A stretch of DNA of 64,000 bases from Burkholderiales bacterium. Lineage in GTDB: Bacteria > Pseudomonadota > Gammaproteobacteria > Burkholderiales > Burkholderiaceae. Location of the stretch: contig JAMFSK010000025.1 in assembly GCA_026225235.1 (NCBI GenBank), forward strand, positions 1 to 64,000, in the 5' to 3' direction. This document shows positions 38,006 to 53,856 of this stretch, piece by piece. The notes beneath the pieces were generated by a model that was not told where the DNA came from, did no database searches, and saw only the letters and a program-made list of their open reading frames with translations. Numbering within the stretch: position 1 is the first letter of the stretch; each line of letters starts with the position of its first letter. Made by a program: the position numbers and the translations under genes.

Positions 38006-38192
38006 GGATCCCTTCCTGCGCCGTTGCGTACAAGAGAAAAAGCAAACCGCGTGCCAATGGACCAAGCGATGTTTCGGTGCAGCCTATTGTCATGCAACGC
38101 ACCGGAAACGAACAGCCCCTTGCTTATCCAGCACGCGGCGGTGCGCGAAGACTCCTTCAGGTGCGCGAGAGGGCTCGCGCCTTGCTCATGCA

Positions 38193-45292: not shown

Positions 45293-45853
45293 ATGTTCAA
45301 GATCGCAATGGAAGTCGATGCCGCCCTCAGCGCTGCGTGGCCCGCCTGGCGTATGCCGCGAGGCAATCTCGTTCATTCTCTGGTCCGCTCATTCGTCGGC
45401 ACTTGTATTAGAACGACGGGGCAGTCGCAGCGCGTCGCGGCCGCCCGTGCCGCCGCACGGGCGGTGGCTGCGCGCAGCGCGGTGCAACCGAAGAGTTGTT
45501 CCGCGGCCTCGTCCGTGCCCGTTAAGTCTGCTGCGTCTGTTAAGTCCACCGGACTTATTAGGTCCGCCGGGCTTGATCAGTCCTCTGGGAAGGTCGCAAG
45601 GCCTGTCAAAGCCCCCCGGCCTGTGAATGCCCCCGTGCTCCCCCGCGGTCTGCCGGTTTCCGAACCCGCCTTCGCGCGCGTGTCGTCGCGCCGTGGCGCT
45701 CAACCCGCCACTGCGAATCCCGTTCGCATCTACTCGACGCCTTCGCGGACCGTGATGGTTGGCAACCTCAGCGAAGTCGCCCGGCTGCTCGACAAATCGA
45801 TCGAACGCGAACGTACGCGCTTGACCTCACGCACCGAAGCAGTGATCTGCTGA
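45293..45853 (+). CDS. Hypothetical protein downstream of lexA
   Basis: 186-residue protein of unknown family. It starts at an ATG with an AAGGA Shine-Dalgarno, 87 bases after lexA in the same direction, so it may be read from the SOS promoter. The middle (about 45-140) is low-complexity, rich in Ala, Ser, Pro, Arg and Val. The last about 40 residues ('SRTVMVGNLSEVARLLDKSIERERTRL') look like an amphipathic helical module. No membrane segment. SOS-linked cell-division inhibitors lie beside lexA in some bacteria, but no similarity is visible here. Confidence 0.6.
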   Translation: MFKIAMEVDAALSAAWPAWRMPRGNLVHSLVRSFVGTCIRTTGQSQRVAAARAAARAVAARSAVQPKSCSAASSVPVKSAASVKSTGLIRSAGLDQSSGKVARPVKAPRPVNAPVLPRGLPVSEPAFARVSSRRGAQPATANPVRIYSTPSRTVMVGNLSEVARLLDKSIERERTRLTSRTEAVIC

Positions 45854-46086
45854 CTCGCGGGCGATCCCTATCGGCGTGCGCCCGGCACCAAGCCGGCCGC
45901 GTCCTGGCACCAACATCACACCTTGAAAGGCTGACGCCCCCCGTCTGCCCGCCGCGATTTCCTGGCCGTTCGGTCGAGGATCGGTCTTAGCCGTTCCGAG
46001 CTTCATCGCTGAGCGCCCCGCTGCGCCTGCGTTTACGCCCCCTCCTTTCCTGGCCCGCCCTTTCTGACTTTGCGTCGCCCCGTCCG
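45854..46086 (+). other. Intergenic region upstream of the sigma-54 promoter
   Basis: No gene seen. Two direct GGCACCAA elements (45884-45891 and 45906-45913) are 22 bases apart, two helical turns, about 180-200 bases before the -24 element. This would suit an enhancer-binding activator; GCACCA resembles an NtrC half-site. Weak evidence. Confidence 0.3.
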
Positions 46087-46103
46087 TTGGCACACGCTTT
46101 GCA
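46087..46103 (+). promoter_or_regulatory. Sigma-54 (RpoN) promoter of the ureide/biuret operon
   Basis: TTGGCACACGCTTTGCA matches YTGGCACG-N4-TTGCW at all but one position. GG (46089-46090) and GC (46101-46102) are spaced by exactly ten bases. Predicted start near 46114, about 109 bases before the first gene. Confidence 0.82.
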
Positions 46104-46120
46104 TAAAGATGCGCGCAATC

Positions 46121-46130
46121 TTGTACACAA
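46121..46130. promoter_or_regulatory. Candidate GntR-type operator (TTGTACACAA)
   Basis: Near-palindrome TTGT-AC-ACAA just downstream of the predicted sigma-54 start. FadR-type GntR proteins bind short palindromes like this, and one is encoded at the end of the operon. Confidence 0.45.
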
Positions 46131-46222
46131 CATTCCATCTGGCAGGCGTCCCCGGCTGGCCTATGTTGGCGCGCTAGCCGTACTTATGCGCCCTATCCCC
46201 GCAACGCCCATAGGAGAACCTC

Positions 46223-47338
46223 GTGATTGATGATTCGTACTCCGCGAGTCGGCGCCGCTTCCTCGCCTCGTCTGCCGCACTCGCTGTCGCCAATGCCTTC
46301 CCCTTCGGTTCTGCGTTTGCTGCGGGCAAACCGCTGACTGTCGGTTTCCTCTACGTCGGACCGCGCGACGACTTCGGCTACAACCAGTCGCATGCGACCG
46401 CCGCAGCAGCCATAAAGCAACTCCCCGGCCTGAAGGTGGTGGAACAGGAGAACGTGCCGGAAACCGTCGCTGTCCAGAAAGCCATGGAAGCGATGATCAA
46501 CGAAGACGGCGCAACTGTCCTGTTCCCAACCTCCTACGGCTACTTCGATCCGCATGTGATCAAGATGGCCGAGAAGTATCCCGACATTCGTTTCGTCCAT
46601 TGCGGCGGACTCTGGAAGGAGGGCAAGGATCCGAAGAACGCAGCGAGCTTCTTTGGTTATATCGACGAGTGCGAATATCTCTCGGGTGTCGCAGCCGGCC
46701 ATGCGACCAAGTCGAAGAAACTGGGCTTCGTCGCTGCAAAGCCGATCCCCCAGGTGCTTCGCAACATCAATGCTTTCACGCTAGGCGCCCAATCGGTATC
46801 ACCGGATATCACGACGCATGTCGTGTTCACTGGCGACTGGTCGATGCCGGTCAAGGAAGCCGAGGCCACCAACAGCCTGATCGACCAGGGCGTCGATGTG
46901 ATCACCTGTCACGTCGACAGCCCGAAGGTCGTGATCGAGACCGCCGAGAAACGCGGCATCTTCAGCTGCGGCTATCACGTCAATCAGGCCGCGCTCGCAC
47001 CGAAAGGGTATCTGACCGGTGCCGAGTGGCATTGGGAAACCGTCTATAAGCAATATGTTGCCGATGCGCAGGCGGGCAAGCCACTTGTCAACTTCATGCG
47101 CGGCGGGCTCAAGGAAGGGTTTGTTAGACCGTCCGCTTATGGCCCGAATGATCCGATGGCGGCTCAACAGAGTGCCGACAAGATTAAGGCTTCGATGATC
47201 GCCGACCAGTTCACGATCTTCAAGGGACCGCTCAAGGACAACAAGGGCAACGTCGTGATCCCCGCTGGCTCGGCACAGCAGCAGACCAACGTCACCCTCG
47301 AAAGCATGAGCTACCTGATCTCCGGCGTGCAGGCCTGA
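46223..47338 (+). CDS. BMP-family ABC transporter substrate-binding protein (Tat-type signal)
   Basis: 371-residue binding protein of the basic membrane protein (BMP/PnrA-like) family, whose known members bind nucleosides or related heterocycles. A twin-arginine-type leader 'SRRRFLASSAALAVANAFPFGSAFA' is present. The mature domain has 'VGFLYVGPRDDFGYNQSH', 'VLFPTSYGYFDPHVIKMAEKYPDIRFVHCGG' and 'GVDVITCHVDSPKVV'. The start is a GTG with a GGAGAA Shine-Dalgarno. First gene behind the sigma-54 promoter. The neighbours suggest a small urea-like or ureide ligand rather than a nucleoside. If the leader works as read, the protein is exported folded. Confidence 0.9.
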   Translation: MIDDSYSASRRRFLASSAALAVANAFPFGSAFAAGKPLTVGFLYVGPRDDFGYNQSHATAAAAIKQLPGLKVVEQENVPETVAVQKAMEAMINEDGATVLFPTSYGYFDPHVIKMAEKYPDIRFVHCGGLWKEGKDPKNAASFFGYIDECEYLSGVAAGHATKSKKLGFVAAKPIPQVLRNINAFTLGAQSVSPDITTHVVFTGDWSMPVKEAEATNSLIDQGVDVITCHVDSPKVVIETAEKRGIFSCGYHVNQAALAPKGYLTGAEWHWETVYKQYVADAQAGKPLVNFMRGGLKEGFVRPSAYGPNDPMAAQQSADKIKASMIADQFTIFKGPLKDNKGNVVIPAGSAQQQTNVTLESMSYLISGVQA

Positions 47339-47420
47339 TGCGAGCGGCACCGATGGCCTGCGAGCCATCGGTGCCGTGACATCGTTCCCCGTGACACTGT
47401 TCCTTTAGAAGGCCTCCACG

Positions 47421-48797
47421 ATGACGTCCGCGCTGACATCGAGTCCTGTCCCTTCTTCCATGACGCTTGCCGACGGTGCGCCCGCGACCACGGGTGAGAT
47501 GCCGGCCGCGCAGTCCATGGCAACTGCAAGTGCTGGTGTATCGGGCGGCGGAATCGCGGACGGTATCGCTGAGTCTGTTGCTGCCGCGTCTGCCGACTTC
47601 GCGGGCGACACGCTGCCGACTCCCGTTTCGACAGGCGACGTTGGCCTGCCACCGATATCGCCCGTCATCGCGGTGCCCACGCTGATCGAACCGCCATGGT
47701 CGCGGCGAGCGCTGGCGGGCATCCCGCTCGACGCGCTTCCGACGATCTGTGCACTCATCAGCGCGATTGCGATGTTTTCAGTGTTGCTCGCGGTTCAGGG
47801 TGTCGATGTCGCGGACGCGCTTGGATTGATCGTCAAGGGCGCTTTCGGCAGCGCATTTGCGTTTCAGAACACCTTGCAACGTGCTGCCCCGCTGATGCTC
47901 ACCGCGCTCTGTGTCGCCTTGCCCGCGCGTGCGGGGCTCATCATCATCGGGGGCGAAGGTGCACTCGCCCTCGGTGGTTTGGCTGCTGCGATTGTGCCGA
48001 TGGTGTTGCCGGGTATCCCCGGCTCAGTCGGCATCGTGCTGATGGGGATTGCCTCGATCATCGCGGGCGGCATCTGGATTGCGATCTCCGGCGCGCTGCG
48101 TCAATGGCGCGGTATCAACGAGGTGATCTCGAGCCTGCTGATGTCGTATATCGCCATTGCGCTGTTCAAGTTTTTTGTCGAGGGCCCGCTGCGCGATCCG
48201 GCGAGTCTCAACAAACCGTCGACGCCGCCGCTCGCGGATGCCTGGATGATCGGTTCGATGCCCGGCCTCGACGTTCACTGGGGACTGGCGGGTGGTCTCG
48301 TGGCCTGCCTGCTCGCCTGGTTTGTCGTACGGCAGACGAGTTCGGGCTTCGCTTTGTCGGTGGTCGGTGGCAACGTCCGCGCGGCGCGCCTGGTTGGTCT
48401 TCCCGTCAACAAGATCATGCTGGCCGCCTGCGGTCTGGGCGGCGGTGCAGCCGGGCTCGCAGGCATGTTCGAAGTTGCCGCCGTGCAGGGCAGCGCGAAT
48501 GCCTCTCTGCTGTCGGGCTACGGATATGGCGGCATTCTCGTCGCTTTCGCCGCGCGTCAGAACCCGTTTGCCTGCATCGTCTGCGCGATCCTGGTCGGCG
48601 GCATCGGCGCGAGTGGCAGCCTCTTGCAACGGCGGCTCGGTCTACCCGATGCAACCGTCCTCGTGCTCCAGGGCATGATCTTCGCGCACCTGCTTGGCTG
48701 GGAAACCCTCGGCGGCAAGATTGAACAGTGGCGCGTGAAATTGCTCAAGCCCACGATCGTCCCCGCAGCCAACGTCACCGGAGCCACGCATGCCTGA
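47421..48797 (+). CDS. ABC transporter permease (BMP-type importer, subunit 1)
   Basis: 458-residue inner-membrane permease of the BPD_transp_2 family, partner of the BMP binding protein. Eight to ten hydrophobic helices start near residue 97. 'RAGLIIIGGEGALALGG' and 'LRQWRGINEVISSLLMSYIA' are the conserved loops. The first about 95 residues are Ala/Ser/Thr/Gly/Pro-rich and have no counterpart in typical members. Several in-frame ATGs inside that stretch could be the true start. Overlaps the next gene by eight bases. Confidence 0.9.
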   Translation: MTSALTSSPVPSSMTLADGAPATTGEMPAAQSMATASAGVSGGGIADGIAESVAAASADFAGDTLPTPVSTGDVGLPPISPVIAVPTLIEPPWSRRALAGIPLDALPTICALISAIAMFSVLLAVQGVDVADALGLIVKGAFGSAFAFQNTLQRAAPLMLTALCVALPARAGLIIIGGEGALALGGLAAAIVPMVLPGIPGSVGIVLMGIASIIAGGIWIAISGALRQWRGINEVISSLLMSYIAIALFKFFVEGPLRDPASLNKPSTPPLADAWMIGSMPGLDVHWGLAGGLVACLLAWFVVRQTSSGFALSVVGGNVRAARLVGLPVNKIMLAACGLGGGAAGLAGMFEVAAVQGSANASLLSGYGYGGILVAFAARQNPFACIVCAILVGGIGASGSLLQRRLGLPDATVLVLQGMIFAHLLGWETLGGKIEQWRVKLLKPTIVPAANVTGATHA

Positions 48798-49713
48798 TGC
48801 TTCCCAGTTTTCCACGCTGGCCATCGCGCTGTGTGCAGGCGCGATTCGGGTCGGGACACCGTTTCTGTTCGTGAGTCTGGGCGAGTGCATCACCGAGAAA
48901 GGGGGGCGCGTGAACCTCGGCCTCGAGGGCACCCTGGTGCTCGGCGCGGTCAGCGGTTATGCTGCCTCTTACCTGAGCGGCTCGGCCTGGCTCGGCGTGC
49001 TGTGTGCTGGTGTGACGGGCATGCTGTTCGGGCTGCTGCACGGCCTCGTGTGCTCGCTCAAACGTGTCAACGATATCGCGTTCGGCATTGCCATGATGCT
49101 GATCGGAACCGGGCTCGCGTTCTATATCGGCAAACCGTTTATTCAGCCTCAGGCGCCGCAGTTGCCCTCGCTGGCGCTCGGCGACTGGCTCGACAATCCG
49201 GTGCTGCGCAGTGCGCTGCGCATCAATGCGCTGTTCATTGTCGGTGTGCTTGCGGCCTTCGCCTTGCAATGGGGCATGCGCTCGACGCGTTGGGGCCTCG
49301 CCCTGCGCATCGTCGGCGACCATGCCGACAGTGCACGCGCGCTCGGCATCCGCGTGACTCCGGTACGCATCGCGGCGACCTCGGCCGGCGGCTTTTTCGC
49401 CGGCATCGGCGGCGCGTATCTGTCGCTCTACTACCCGGGCAGCTGGAGCGAAGGCCTCTCGAGCGGCCAGGGCCTGATGGCCGTGGCACTCGTGATCTTT
49501 GCCGGCTGGCAACCGGTGCGCTGTCTCTATGCCGCCCTGCTGTTCGGCGCGGCCGGTGCGCTCGGCCCGGCACTGCAATCGATCGGCGTGACGTCAGGCT
49601 ATTACTTGTATAACGCCGCGCCTTACGCTTTGACGCTTGCCCTGATGATCGCCACCTGCCGTCCGAACCGCACCATGAGTGGTGCGCCCGGGGAACTGTC
49701 ACTTAATCGATAA
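48790..49713 (+). CDS. ABC transporter permease (BMP-type importer, subunit 2)
   Basis: 307-residue permease of the same family, with 'GAIRVGTPFLFVSLGECITEKGGRVNLGLEGTLVLGAV' at the start and 'GLALRIVGDHADSARALGIRV' in the middle. It pairs with the first permease to form the channel, as in known purine/nucleoside importers. Overlaps the preceding gene by eight bases, so translational coupling is likely. Confidence 0.92.
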   Translation: MPDASQFSTLAIALCAGAIRVGTPFLFVSLGECITEKGGRVNLGLEGTLVLGAVSGYAASYLSGSAWLGVLCAGVTGMLFGLLHGLVCSLKRVNDIAFGIAMMLIGTGLAFYIGKPFIQPQAPQLPSLALGDWLDNPVLRSALRINALFIVGVLAAFALQWGMRSTRWGLALRIVGDHADSARALGIRVTPVRIAATSAGGFFAGIGGAYLSLYYPGSWSEGLSSGQGLMAVALVIFAGWQPVRCLYAALLFGAAGALGPALQSIGVTSGYYLYNAAPYALTLALMIATCRPNRTMSGAPGELSLNR

Positions 49714-49773
49714 CACTTGGCTCGTGCCCCACTGGGGTCATGACCGATCAACTTGCCAACAGGAGCTTTGCCG

Positions 49774-50457
49774 ATGCCTTTGACCCCCGTCGATGCCGAC
49801 CCCTATGCGTGGCCCTACGACGGCGAATTTGCGCCGGAGGACACGGCGCTGATCGTGATCGACATGCAGACCGACTTTTGCGGCGTCGGTGGCTATGTCG
49901 ATTCGATGGGCTATGACATCGCGCTCACGCGCGCACCGATCGAGCCGATTCGCTCGGTGCTCTCGCGCATGCGCACGCTGGGCTTCACGATCATCCACAC
50001 ACGTGAAGGGCACCGGCCTGACTTGTCGGACCTGCCCGCGAACAAACGCTGGCGTTCGCGCCAGATTGGCGCGGGCATCGGCGACCCGGGTCCGTGCGGC
50101 AAGATCCTGGTGCGCGGCGAACCCGGCTGGGAAATCATCCCCGAGCTCGCGCCGATCGAAGGCGAGATCGTGCTCGACAAACCCGGCAAGGGCTCGTTCT
50201 GTGCGACCGACCTTGAGTTGATCCTGCGCACCCAAGGCATTCGCAACCTGATCCTGAGCGGCATCACCACCGATGTATGCGTGCATACGACGATGCGCGA
50301 AGCCAATGATCGGGGGTTCGAATGTCTGTTGCTGGCCGACTGTTGTGCCGCGACGGACCCGGCCAACCATCTCGCGGCGCTGCATATGGTCAAGATGCAG
50401 GGCGGCGTCTTTGGCACGGTGTCGGATTCCGCGGCACTCTTGAAGTCCCTCGGCTAA
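49774..50457 (+). CDS. biuH: Biuret amidohydrolase-like cysteine hydrolase (isochorismatase family)
   Basis: 227-residue isochorismatase-like hydrolase with triad D30 ('[16 protein letters not shown]'), K136 ('DKPGKGSF') and C169 ('TTDVCVHTT'). The whole sequence, including '[17 protein letters not shown]'-type blocks (here '[18 protein letters not shown]') and '[19 protein letters not shown]', strongly resembles Rhizobium biuret hydrolase as I remember it, with the same spacing of the triad. It would split biuret to allophanate and ammonia. The start at 49774 has an AGGAG Shine-Dalgarno; a TTG at 49753 would lie before it. RutB-like ureidoacrylate hydrolase is the main alternative. No allophanate hydrolase is in the window. 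Confidence 0.82.
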
Positions 50458-50467
50458 GGAGAACGGC

Positions 50468-52045
50468 ATGCGCGCGCTGAAGGTGGAAGTGATCGGTGCC
50501 GGCAAATCGTTTGGCGCATTCCGTGCGCTCGACGAGGTGTCGCTGACGGTGCGTCCCGGCACGGTTCACGCCCTCCTGGGCGAGAACGGTGCGGGCAAGA
50601 GCACCCTGCTCAAGGGACTGATCGGCTATGCGCCGCTCGACCAGGGGCAGATCGCCGTCGACGATCGCGAAGTCTCGATCCACAATCCGCGCGCTGCCCA
50701 TGCGCTGGGCTTCGGCATGGTCTACCAGCATTTCACGGTGGCGCCAGGGCTTAGTGTGGCCGAGAACCTCCTGCTAGCAAAGGGTGGCCTGCCCTTTGCG
50801 ATCGACTGGAAAGCGTCGCGCGCGGGCCTCGAAGCGTTCATGGCGCAGGCACCTTTCAAGGTGCCGCTCGATGCCCTTGTCGGCACCCTCGCGGCCGGAG
50901 AAAAACAAAAGCTTGAGATTCTCAAGCAACTTTATCTACAAAGCCGTCTGCTGATTCTCGACGAACCGACCTCCGTGCTCACCGTGCAGGAAGCCTTCGA
51001 AGTGCTGGGCCTGGTGCGCAAGCTGGCACAGAGTGGTGAGCTCAGCGTGCTGATGATCACCCACAAGTTCGCCGAGGTGCTTGAGTTCGCCGATGATGTC
51101 ACGGTGCTTCGGCGCGGCCGTCTGGTCGGTGCGACCAAAGTGGCCGACACGAGTGCCGACGCACTCGCTCGATGGATGATGGGCGAAGAGGTCAAACGCG
51201 CGCTGGAAACGGGCACTCATGCCGCACGCGTTCCAACCGGTGAAGTGCGGCTGAAGGTTGACGGCCTGACGGTCGAAGACGATCATGGAATGGCACGCGC
51301 AAAGGGCGTCACACTTGATGTGCGACGTGGCGAAATCGTGGGCCTCGCGGGTATCGCGGGCAACGGCCAGAAAGAACTGATCGAAGCCCTGCTCGGTCAG
51401 CGGCCGCATGCCGCAGGCAGCATCGCGATGAACGGCGCGCCCTACCGCGCGACCCGCGAAGAGATGCGGCGTCACCGGGTCGGCACGCTCCCTGAGGAGC
51501 CCTTGGCCAATGGCTGTGTGGGCAAGATGAGCGTGGCCGAAAACCTTGCGCTGCGCGACTTCGATCAGCCCCCGATTCGTCGTCGTACCGGCTTGATCGA
51601 TCGAAACAAAATGCGTGAAGCGGCGCTCGTGCGGATCGCCGCGTTCAATGTGAAGCCGCCCGATCCACAGCGACCGATCGGCACGCTCTCGGGAGGTAAC
51701 GTGCAGCGAGCCATTCTCGCGCGCGAACTCGCAAGCGATGTCGACGTGCTAATCGTCGCCAACCCCGTGTTCGGTCTCGACTTTGCAGCGGTGGCCGATA
51801 TTCACGACAAATTGCGCCGCGCGCGCGACCGCGGCGCTGCCGTGCTGGTCGCGAGCGACGACCTCGATGAACTGCTGGAACTGGCCGACCGCCTGCTGAT
51901 CATCAGCGATGGTGAGATCGTCCACGAAACAACCGCGGCGCAGGCGTCGCGGGCCGAGATCGGTGCGTTCATGGCCGGCCGAGGCCATTCCGTCCAGGTG
52001 GGGCAGCCTGCTAGCCCGGCCGATGTCACAGGAGCCGCAAGATGA
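50468..52045 (+). CDS. ABC transporter ATP-binding protein with two nucleotide-binding domains
   Basis: 525-residue double ATPase of the type that goes with BMP-binding importers. The first domain has Walker A '[14 protein letters not shown]' and '[12 protein letters not shown]', with an atypical signature '[15 protein letters not shown]'. The second has '[16 protein letters not shown]' and a canonical signature '[16 protein letters not shown]', while its Walker B reads '[13 protein letters not shown]', with Asn in place of the usual Glu. This asymmetry is common in two-domain members. The start has an AAGGAGA Shine-Dalgarno. Overlaps the next gene by ATGA. Confidence 0.93.
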
Positions 52046-52722
52046 TTACAGTCGATGCCCTACCCTATGACTTTCGTTTCGAGCCCGAGTCGACCGCGAT
52101 CGTATCGATCGACATGCAGCGCGATTTCATCGAACCCGGCGGCTTCGGCGATACCCTCGGCAACGACATCAGTCGTCTTGCGGCCATCGTGCCGACCGTC
52201 GCCGCCTTGCTCGCCTGGGGCCGTGCGCTCGGACTGACCATCGTCCATACGCGCGAAGCCCATCTGCCTGACTTGTCGGACTGCCCGCCGGCCAAACGCT
52301 TGCGCGGCAACCCCAAAATCCGCATCGGCGACCCCGGTCCGATGGGTCGTCTGCTGGTGCGAGGCGAGCCCGGAAACCAGATCATTCCGCAGGTCGCGCC
52401 ATTGCCCGGCGAACTTGTGGTCGACAAGCCCGGCAAGGGGGCGTTCTATGCCACCACGCTCGGCGCCATGCTCGAAGCCCATGGTATCCGGCGGCTCATC
52501 GTCTGCGGCGTCACCACCGAAGTCTGCGTGCAGACCACCCTGCGCGAAGCCAACGACCGTGGCTATGAATGCCTGCTCGTCGAAGACGCGGCGGCCAGCT
52601 ACTTTCCGGCTTACCATGCACAGACCCTCGAGATGCTGCGCTCGCAGGGCGGCATCGTCTGCTGGACCGCGCCACTCGCTTCCCTTCTGCAGGTAACGGC
52701 TGAACTGGAAACCCGAACATGA
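52042..52722 (+). CDS. Second isochorismatase-like cysteine hydrolase (triuret/ureide hydrolase candidate)
   Basis: 226-residue hydrolase paralogous to the biuret hydrolase gene two positions upstream. Triad: D24 ('[17 protein letters not shown]'), K129 ('DKPGKGAF') and C162 ('TTEVCVQTT'). The active-site motifs match its neighbour, but the loop after the first Asp is different ('[13 protein letters not shown]' in place of '[13 protein letters not shown]'), suggesting a different substrate. Triuret hydrolases are close relatives of BiuH and are encoded beside it in some betaproteobacteria, so triuret or another ureide is a reasonable guess. ATGA overlaps at both ends. Confidence 0.75.
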
Positions 52723-53165
52723 GCCAAGAGATTGCAAACCCGGAATTATCTGATCGCGCTGCCAGTGCCGGCACCGTCGACCTCGGCAAAATCGCAGCCG
52801 AAGTCCGTGCCATCTTCGACGAATACGAAGCTGCCCTCGTGCGTCACGACAACGAAGTCCTGAGTAACTTCTTCTGGGACTCCCCGCACACGATTCGTTA
52901 CGGCGTGCGCGAGCATTCGCACGGCATCGATTCGATCCGCGCGTTTCGGGCCGATACGACACCCGTGCATCCGCAACGGCGCCTGCGCGAGACGGTGGTC
53001 GTCGCATTCAGCGCCGACAGTGCAAGCGCCTGCACACAATTCCTCGCCCCTGACACCACCTTGATCGGGCGGCAAACGCAAACCTGGATACGGTTTCCCG
53101 AGGGCTGGAAGATCGTCGCGGCTCACGTCAGCACTGTGAATCCGGACAAGCTCATCGTGTATTGA
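52719..53165 (+). CDS. HpxZ/AtzH-like SnoaL-fold protein
   Basis: 148-residue protein of the DUF3225 family, of the type called HpxZ (oxalurate catabolism) or AtzH (cyanurate catabolism). The core '[50 protein letters not shown]' and '[20 protein letters not shown]' is clear and predicts a small alpha+beta barrel. The enzymatic role is not settled. Its place with two amidohydrolases supports a ureide or biuret pathway. It overlaps the preceding gene by ATGA and precedes the regulator by four bases. The first about 20 residues look disordered. Confidence 0.85.
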
Positions 53166-53169
53166 AGCT

Positions 53170-53856
53170 ATGCCTCGAAATCCGAGCAATCCGCTGGCCG
53201 AAGAGATCTATGCGCGCGTCAAGGAAGATATCTTCGACTTCCGGTTGTTGCCGGGCGAACGCTTTACCGAAACCGAAGTCGCCGGGCGTTACGGCGTGTC
53301 GCGCACGCCCGTGCGTGACGCGCTCTATCGTTTAAAGCGAGAGGGGTTTCTCGAGGTCGCATTTCGTAGCGGCTGGTCGGTGAAGCCGCTCGATTTTGAC
53401 GTGTTCGACGATCTTTACGATCTGCGCATTGTGCTCGAGACCGCAGCGATCGAACGCATCTGCCATCTCGAAGATTTGTCGGCACTCGAAACGTTGTCGA
53501 GCACCTGGTTGGTCGAGCCGGATGCCCGTTGCCGCGAAGCGCGCGAGATGTCGAGTCTCGATGAAGCCTTTCATGTCAAGCTTGTCGAAGTCGCCGGCAA
53601 CCATGAAATGGCCCGCGTACATCACGAGCTGACCGAGAAAATCCGGATCATGCGCCGGCTTGATTTTCTCAAGCCCTTGCGCATCGATGCGACCTATGAA
53701 GAGCATGCCGTGATCCTTCGCCTGATCATCCGACGTTCGGCGAACGAGGCGTCAATGCTGATTCGCTCGCATATTCTCGAGAGCAAATCCGAAGTCAAGA
53801 AGATCACCTTGCACATGCTGCATCAGGCCCGCGAAGCGATGGTTATCGAGGGGTGA
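53170..53856 (+). CDS. FadR-subfamily GntR regulator
   Basis: 228-residue GntR-family regulator. The winged helix includes 'AEEIYARVKEDIFDFRLLPGERFTETEVAGRYGVSRTPVRDALYRLKREGFLEV'. The C-terminal FCD domain (about 80-220) keeps the usual metal-site pattern: D in 'YDLRIVLE', His in 'AFHVKLVEVAGN' and His in 'RSHILESK'. Four bases after the HpxZ-like gene, so in the operon it probably controls, with the palindrome at 46121 as a possible site. The ligand may be the ureide substrate or a product. Confidence 0.9.
   Translation: MPRNPSNPLAEEIYARVKEDIFDFRLLPGERFTETEVAGRYGVSRTPVRDALYRLKREGFLEVAFRSGWSVKPLDFDVFDDLYDLRIVLETAAIERICHLEDLSALETLSSTWLVEPDARCREAREMSSLDEAFHVKLVEVAGNHEMARVHHELTEKIRIMRRLDFLKPLRIDATYEEHAVILRLIIRRSANEASMLIRSHILESKSEVKKITLHMLHQAREAMVIEG

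Follow-up and report, generated by a model that had tools for sequence, protein, structure and literature searches.

In Pseudomonas sp. ADP, the operon for cyanuric acid, whose pathway also runs via carboxybiuret and allophanate, is under NtrC/sigma54 control combined with a pathway-specific regulator, the LysR-type protein AtzR. At the hutU promoter of Pseudomonas, the GntR-family repressor HutC overlaps a sigma54 promoter in a nitrogen-yielding catabolic operon, which is activated by NtrC from distant upstream sites and relieved of repression by a pathway compound, urocanate (PMC12977541, PMC8871633). For the FadR subfamily of GntR proteins, those with an FCD domain, the operators are A/T-rich palindromes with TKGT/ACMA boxes, typically with a GT-AC gap of 3 nt and with extra half-sites beside the main box (PMC4494728, which mentions neither allophanate nor urea). 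Triuret is an impurity of urea fertiliser (PMC7948467), and its breakdown, as outlined in the pathway sections of PMC7948467 and PMC12625717, leads from triuret to carboxybiuret by TrtA, on to biuret by a decarboxylase (TrtB) and to allophanate by BiuH, after which AtzF frees ammonia. The sections of these two papers that deal with triuret/biuret operons describe no regulation, and we found no description of the control of such operons in the open-licence papers searched.

We analysed a stretch of 64,000 nucleotides of a Burkholderiales bacterium (contig JAMFSK010000025.1, positions 1 to 64,000; hereafter the window), in which an operon at 46223-53856 on the plus strand is, judging by a gene content that matches the published triuret pathway, one for biuret/triuret uptake and hydrolysis. 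Its first gene, bmp (46223-47338, GTG start), encodes the substrate-binding protein of a BMP/PnrA-type ABC transporter (PF02608, E=3e-40) and is followed by two ABC permease genes (47421-48797 and 48790-49713, both PF02653), the biuret hydrolase gene biuH (49753-50457; NF050097 at 420 bits with an equivalog cut-off of 370; best solved match 6azo, E=6e-120) and an ABC ATPase gene (50468-52045; PF00005 in two stretches). The isochorismatase-like product of the next gene (52042-52722) scores 342 bits to 6xix (TrtA), 217 bits to the biuret hydrolase 6xjm and below the BiuH cut-off, and the Cys of its TEVCVQT motif aligns with the residue that is changed to Ser in 6xj4; by its closest solved match and active-site Cys it is a TrtA-like enzyme, with triuret hydrolysis as its predicted activity. 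The AtzH/HpxZ-like protein encoded at 52719-53165 (PF11533; NF033625 at 147 bits, cut-off 135) is the probable carboxybiuret decarboxylase TrtB, a role that we take from the pathway sections of PMC7948467 and PMC12625717. The last gene, gntR (53170-53856; PF00392 and PF07729), encodes the predicted repressor of the operon, a FadR-subfamily protein with a winged helix and an FCD domain with Asp/His metal ligands. Residues D131, H135, H179 and H201, which we take from general knowledge of FCD domains to be these ligands, are near-invariant, and the ligand-binding domain therefore appears intact. In the parts of PMC7948467 and PMC12625717 that present them, the triuret/biuret operons of Herbaspirillum and Rhizobium and the biuH clusters of nitrifiers, respectively, share trtA, biuH, an AtzH-like trtB and a bmp-type transporter with the window, and the synteny figure legend of the latter paper also draws gntR; unlike the published triuret/biuret operons, the window operon is without atzF, the nearest homologue of which (49%) lies elsewhere in the genome.

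Upstream of bmp, the -24/-12 (sigma54) promoter element TTGGCACACGCTTTGCA occupies 46087-46103 on the plus strand. The preliminary description had called it near-perfect, and direct reading agrees, with GG at 46089-46090 and GC at 46101-46102 separated by ten bases and with a single difference from the consensus YTGGCACGN4TTGCW, at the eighth letter (A for G). Taking the C of GC as -12, we recomputed the predicted transcription start and again obtained 46114, a position that follows from the -12 letter only. At promoters of this class, transcription is expected to begin 11-12 nt past -12 and to require rpoN together with an enhancer protein. The genome carries two rpoN genes above the curated cut-off, and a search of the intergenic region returned no sigma70-like promoter, terminator or Rfam/known RNA element. 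The predicted GntR operator CTTGTACACAAC follows at 46120-46131 on the plus strand (+7 to +18), and the palindrome previously placed at about +8 to +17 was read as TTGTACACAA at 46121-46130, which is exactly +8 to +17 if +1 is 46114. The TTGT/ACAA arms match perfectly, the central AC dinucleotide is not self-complementary, and the repeat extends more widely as AAT-C-TTGT-AC-ACAA-C-ATT. With its TKGT/ACMA boxes (TTGT-AC-ACAA), the A/T-rich box matches the FadR-subfamily operator pattern, although its gap is 2 nt and not the typical 3 nt (PMC4494728).

In many relatives (for instance the loci L049, L055 and L060) the box forms part of a longer inverted repeat with co-varying outer arms (GAGTTC/GAACTC, GCGTTC/GAACGC), and the window copy lacks most of this repeat. 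We considered whether these long arms form an RNA hairpin in place of a DNA operator and rejected this, since most of the left arm precedes the predicted +1, which makes a hairpin in the transcript unlikely; extra GntR half-sites, a known feature of these regulators (PMC4494728), fit the flanking arms better.

Neither element is remarkable alone. Across the 6.11-Mb genome, sigma54-like sites with at most one mismatch number 19, so that the case from the letters alone is weak, and at up to two mismatches the forward pattern (286 sites) does not exceed the reversed-pattern control (308). Similarly, TTGTNNACAA has 50 copies genome-wide (control 39), and the chance that a copy falls no more than 40 nt from a given site is therefore about 3e-4. 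The combination of a sigma54 element and the box occurred in none of 60 dinucleotide shuffles of the window. Such close coupling is unlikely by chance, and the case rests on comparison with other genomes.

In the syntenic locus of a sister species of the same genus (G037:C34), lexA is 96% identical, biuH 92%, trtA 91%, trtB 84% and gntR 76%, and biuH is the first gene because this locus is without the transporter. In the same place stands TTGGCACAGCCTTTGCGTAAAGAGGCGCTCAATCTTGTACACAACA, identical to the window at 41 of the 46 nt of the promoter-operator block and with the same box CTTGTACACAAC, whereas the 46-nt flanks on either side show 13 and 12 matches and, in 200 comparisons after shuffling of the two regions, the number of matches reached 29 at most; the block is thus kept although the first gene differs, biuH there and bmp in the window. 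The sister genome contains two homologues of the regulator, one of 76% accompanied by CTTGTACACAAC and one of 52% accompanied by CTTGTATTCAAG, and this pairing of regulator type with box type is the best available evidence that the window GntR protein would bind CTTGTACACAAC. The gntR homologue of the syntenic locus (L227, 9168-9849) is split over two frames (residues 1-166 and 164-227), which reflects a sequencing error or a genuine frameshift. Between lexA and the window operon, an ORF of 186 aa (45293-45853) has no family match, and only its last third is conserved in the sister species (85% over 62 aa).

Next, we fetched 31 further loci around orthologous operons, which are homologous regions and not independent samples, and observed that 28 carry GG-N10-GC followed 13-18 nt on by CTTGTATTCAAG or a near variant. 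The module precedes bmp or, where an atzF (identified by us from its translation) is inserted, stands ahead of that gene, about 1.9 kb upstream; it is also present in Herbaspirillum loci. There are three exceptions, with a regulator but no recognisable module in L035, neither element in L064 and only the box in L065; a candidate operator CTTGTACGCAAC at -273 in L035 was rejected, as it lies inside an apparent atzF coding sequence. In L041 (genome G196), about 190 nt upstream of bmp, the box is followed by ATGGAAGCACCTGTGGCTGCT, which resembles the atzF start in L040 (ATGGAAGCGTCCGTGGCTGAT), as if atzF had been deleted there.

Upon scanning 84,980 species with the pattern TGGCAYN6TGCN{12,20}CTTGTATNCAAG, at least 120 stretches matched, with about eight expected by chance (an estimate from base counts under uniform composition). 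Of these we examined 80 loci, and in 59 atzF or bmp begins within 400 nt, while some other matches precede an NMT1-like transporter gene. Among the matches listed, Burkholderiaceae, Achromobacter, Herbaspirillum, Zoogloea, Acinetobacter and Pseudomonas are represented, and the few in archaea, Bacteroidetes and Omnitrophota are consistent with the chance expectation. The pattern also precedes genes that by translation resemble TonB-dependent receptors in Solimonas and Acinetobacter variabilis (L107 and L174), possibly for outer-membrane uptake of ureides, and in L174 a gntR homologue (47%) is found just upstream. Among 399 genomes of the order, the pattern was present in five, once in each, and its reversal in none, so that the module looks like a single-target local switch.

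These comparisons bear on whether the sigma54 element could be a chance match, with the operon transcribed from another promoter. Single-site matches are indeed common and the two-mismatch counts do not exceed the control, but the pair recurs in front of different first genes, both in the sister locus and in a range of genera, the control with the reversed pattern gave zero and the sigma70-like alternative was looked for without success. Conservation in the sister species and in 28 of the 31 further operons is, at the level of sequence, the decisive evidence for a real element pair, and together with the reversed-pattern control it leads us to reject the chance explanation, to which we assign a negligible probability. 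The anatomical parts of the preliminary description all hold; in many genera, promoter element and GntR box are kept together at near-constant spacing.

Further upstream, two tandem copies of the NtrC-like half-site GGCACCAA (45884-45891 and 45906-45913, plus strand) form a predicted enhancer, and the pair, with its 22-bp spacing, is kept in the sister locus. The best GCACC-N5-GGTGC palindrome in the window reaches only 7 of 10 positions, and the half-sites are GGCACC, not TGCACC. In relatives, TGCACC/GGTGCA half-sites are 4.3-fold enriched upstream (64 against 15 expected), NtrC palindromes of 9 of 10 positions are present in 15 regions against 1.8 expected, and 16 of 30 upstream regions contain same-strand GCAC[CT] pairs spaced by 20-22 bp, where shuffles give 0.33. 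Within the draft genome, the best ntrC match is an incomplete NtrC-like gene cut short where a contig ends; it spans positions 1-263 of 463 and scores 430 bits, the full-length cut-off being 558.6. It could be argued that the sigma54 element is real and that an enhancer protein other than NtrC acts on it, the signal then not being general nitrogen limitation, since the genome encodes many sigma54 activators and the window is without a full NtrC palindrome. We regard this as improbable, given that relatives show an excess of NtrC-type half-sites at regular spacing, that such half-sites are kept in the sister locus, and that the operon frees ammonia from nitrogen-rich substrates.

Elsewhere in the window, the only zero-mismatch sigma54 site of the genome, TTGGCACGCGGTTTGCT, lies on the minus strand at 38057-38041, before an operon whose translations resemble ATP-grasp, alpha-E and transglutaminase-like proteins; NtrC-like half-sites upstream of it are also kept in G016. 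A box CTTGTACGCAAC after this site (38041-38057, minus strand) was considered as a second GntR target and rejected, because it is not kept in a 94%-identical relative, which has CTTGTGACGCAAC.

With the position, sequence and conservation of the elements, the gene content and the presence of rpoN established here, we consider it very likely that 46087-46131 is a control region working as an AND gate, which joins NtrC/sigma54 activation under nitrogen limitation to a GntR roadblock relieved by a ureide. Under nitrogen limitation, phosphorylated NtrC would occupy the two GCACC boxes in tandem, some 180-200 bp upstream, loop to the RNA polymerase-sigma54 complex at the -24/-12 element and open the DNA near 46114. 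The product of the last gene in the operon, the GntR/FCD protein, would sit on CTTGTACACAAC at +7 to +18 and stop open-complex formation or escape, until a ureide, be it biuret, triuret or one of their breakdown products, frees it from the box; the operon would therefore be transcribed only when nitrogen is short and substrate is present. The preliminary description had proposed activation under nitrogen limitation and repression by GntR without its ligand, and our results support this interpretation, in which we infer the start, NtrC as activator, binding of GntR to the box, repression and release by ligand, as well as the ligand's identity and polarity. Precedents for dual GntR regulators exist, and the same promoter and operator could serve a GntR protein that is a dual regulator or depends on a co-repressor, with a product tightening its binding or its ligand-bound form aiding activation. 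The polarity of an effector is not readable from sequence, and an FCD domain whose metal residues are intact binds a ligand of some kind; a box located at +4 to +18, however, suits blockage and not activation, the pathway is catabolic, and release by substrate is usual in catabolic pathways, which makes such a protein an unlikely alternative to the ureide-relieved roadblock.

Compared with the described systems, HutC at the sigma54 promoter of hutU provides a close functional precedent for the predicted arrangement in the window, as both operons yield nitrogen; at hutU, NtrC acts from distant upstream sites and a pathway compound gives relief (PMC12977541, PMC8871633), roles that are predicted here for NtrC and a ureide. 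The two differ in that HutC belongs to the HutC/UTRA-type GntR subfamily and the window regulator is of the FCD type, in that the HutC-protected region overlaps the sigma54 site whereas the window box lies at +7 to +18, and in that the hutU pathway is a different one and CbrB also acts there. From the AtzR system the window departs in its regulator, a GntR protein in place of a LysR-type one.

Overall, the region very probably works as a genuine genetic switch for taking up and degrading biuret and triuret, both by-products in fertiliser, and by sequence comparison the same switch very probably stands upstream of related sets of genes of many soil bacteria. On balance we favour the view of a portable module in which an FCD-GntR operator directly past +1 is joined to a sigma54 promoter and NtrC boxes. 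In Beta- and Gammaproteobacteria this module would be kept as a unit at the head of ureide-nitrogen operons with at least four different first genes (atzF, bmp, biuH and the NMT1-like transporter gene), and operator and regulator would have co-diverged into two types that coexist in the sister species. Biuret is chemically next to triuret, and the enzymes that break them down are already known; a widely conserved promoter-operator module allows the regulator, the control by nitrogen and the class of the inducer to be predicted directly. The module would cleanly illustrate how a repressor can act immediately downstream of a sigma54 start and is a candidate natural ureide biosensor, and, if it is indeed portable, these GntR proteins would form a sensor group, undescribed so far, that is dedicated to biuret, triuret or allophanate.
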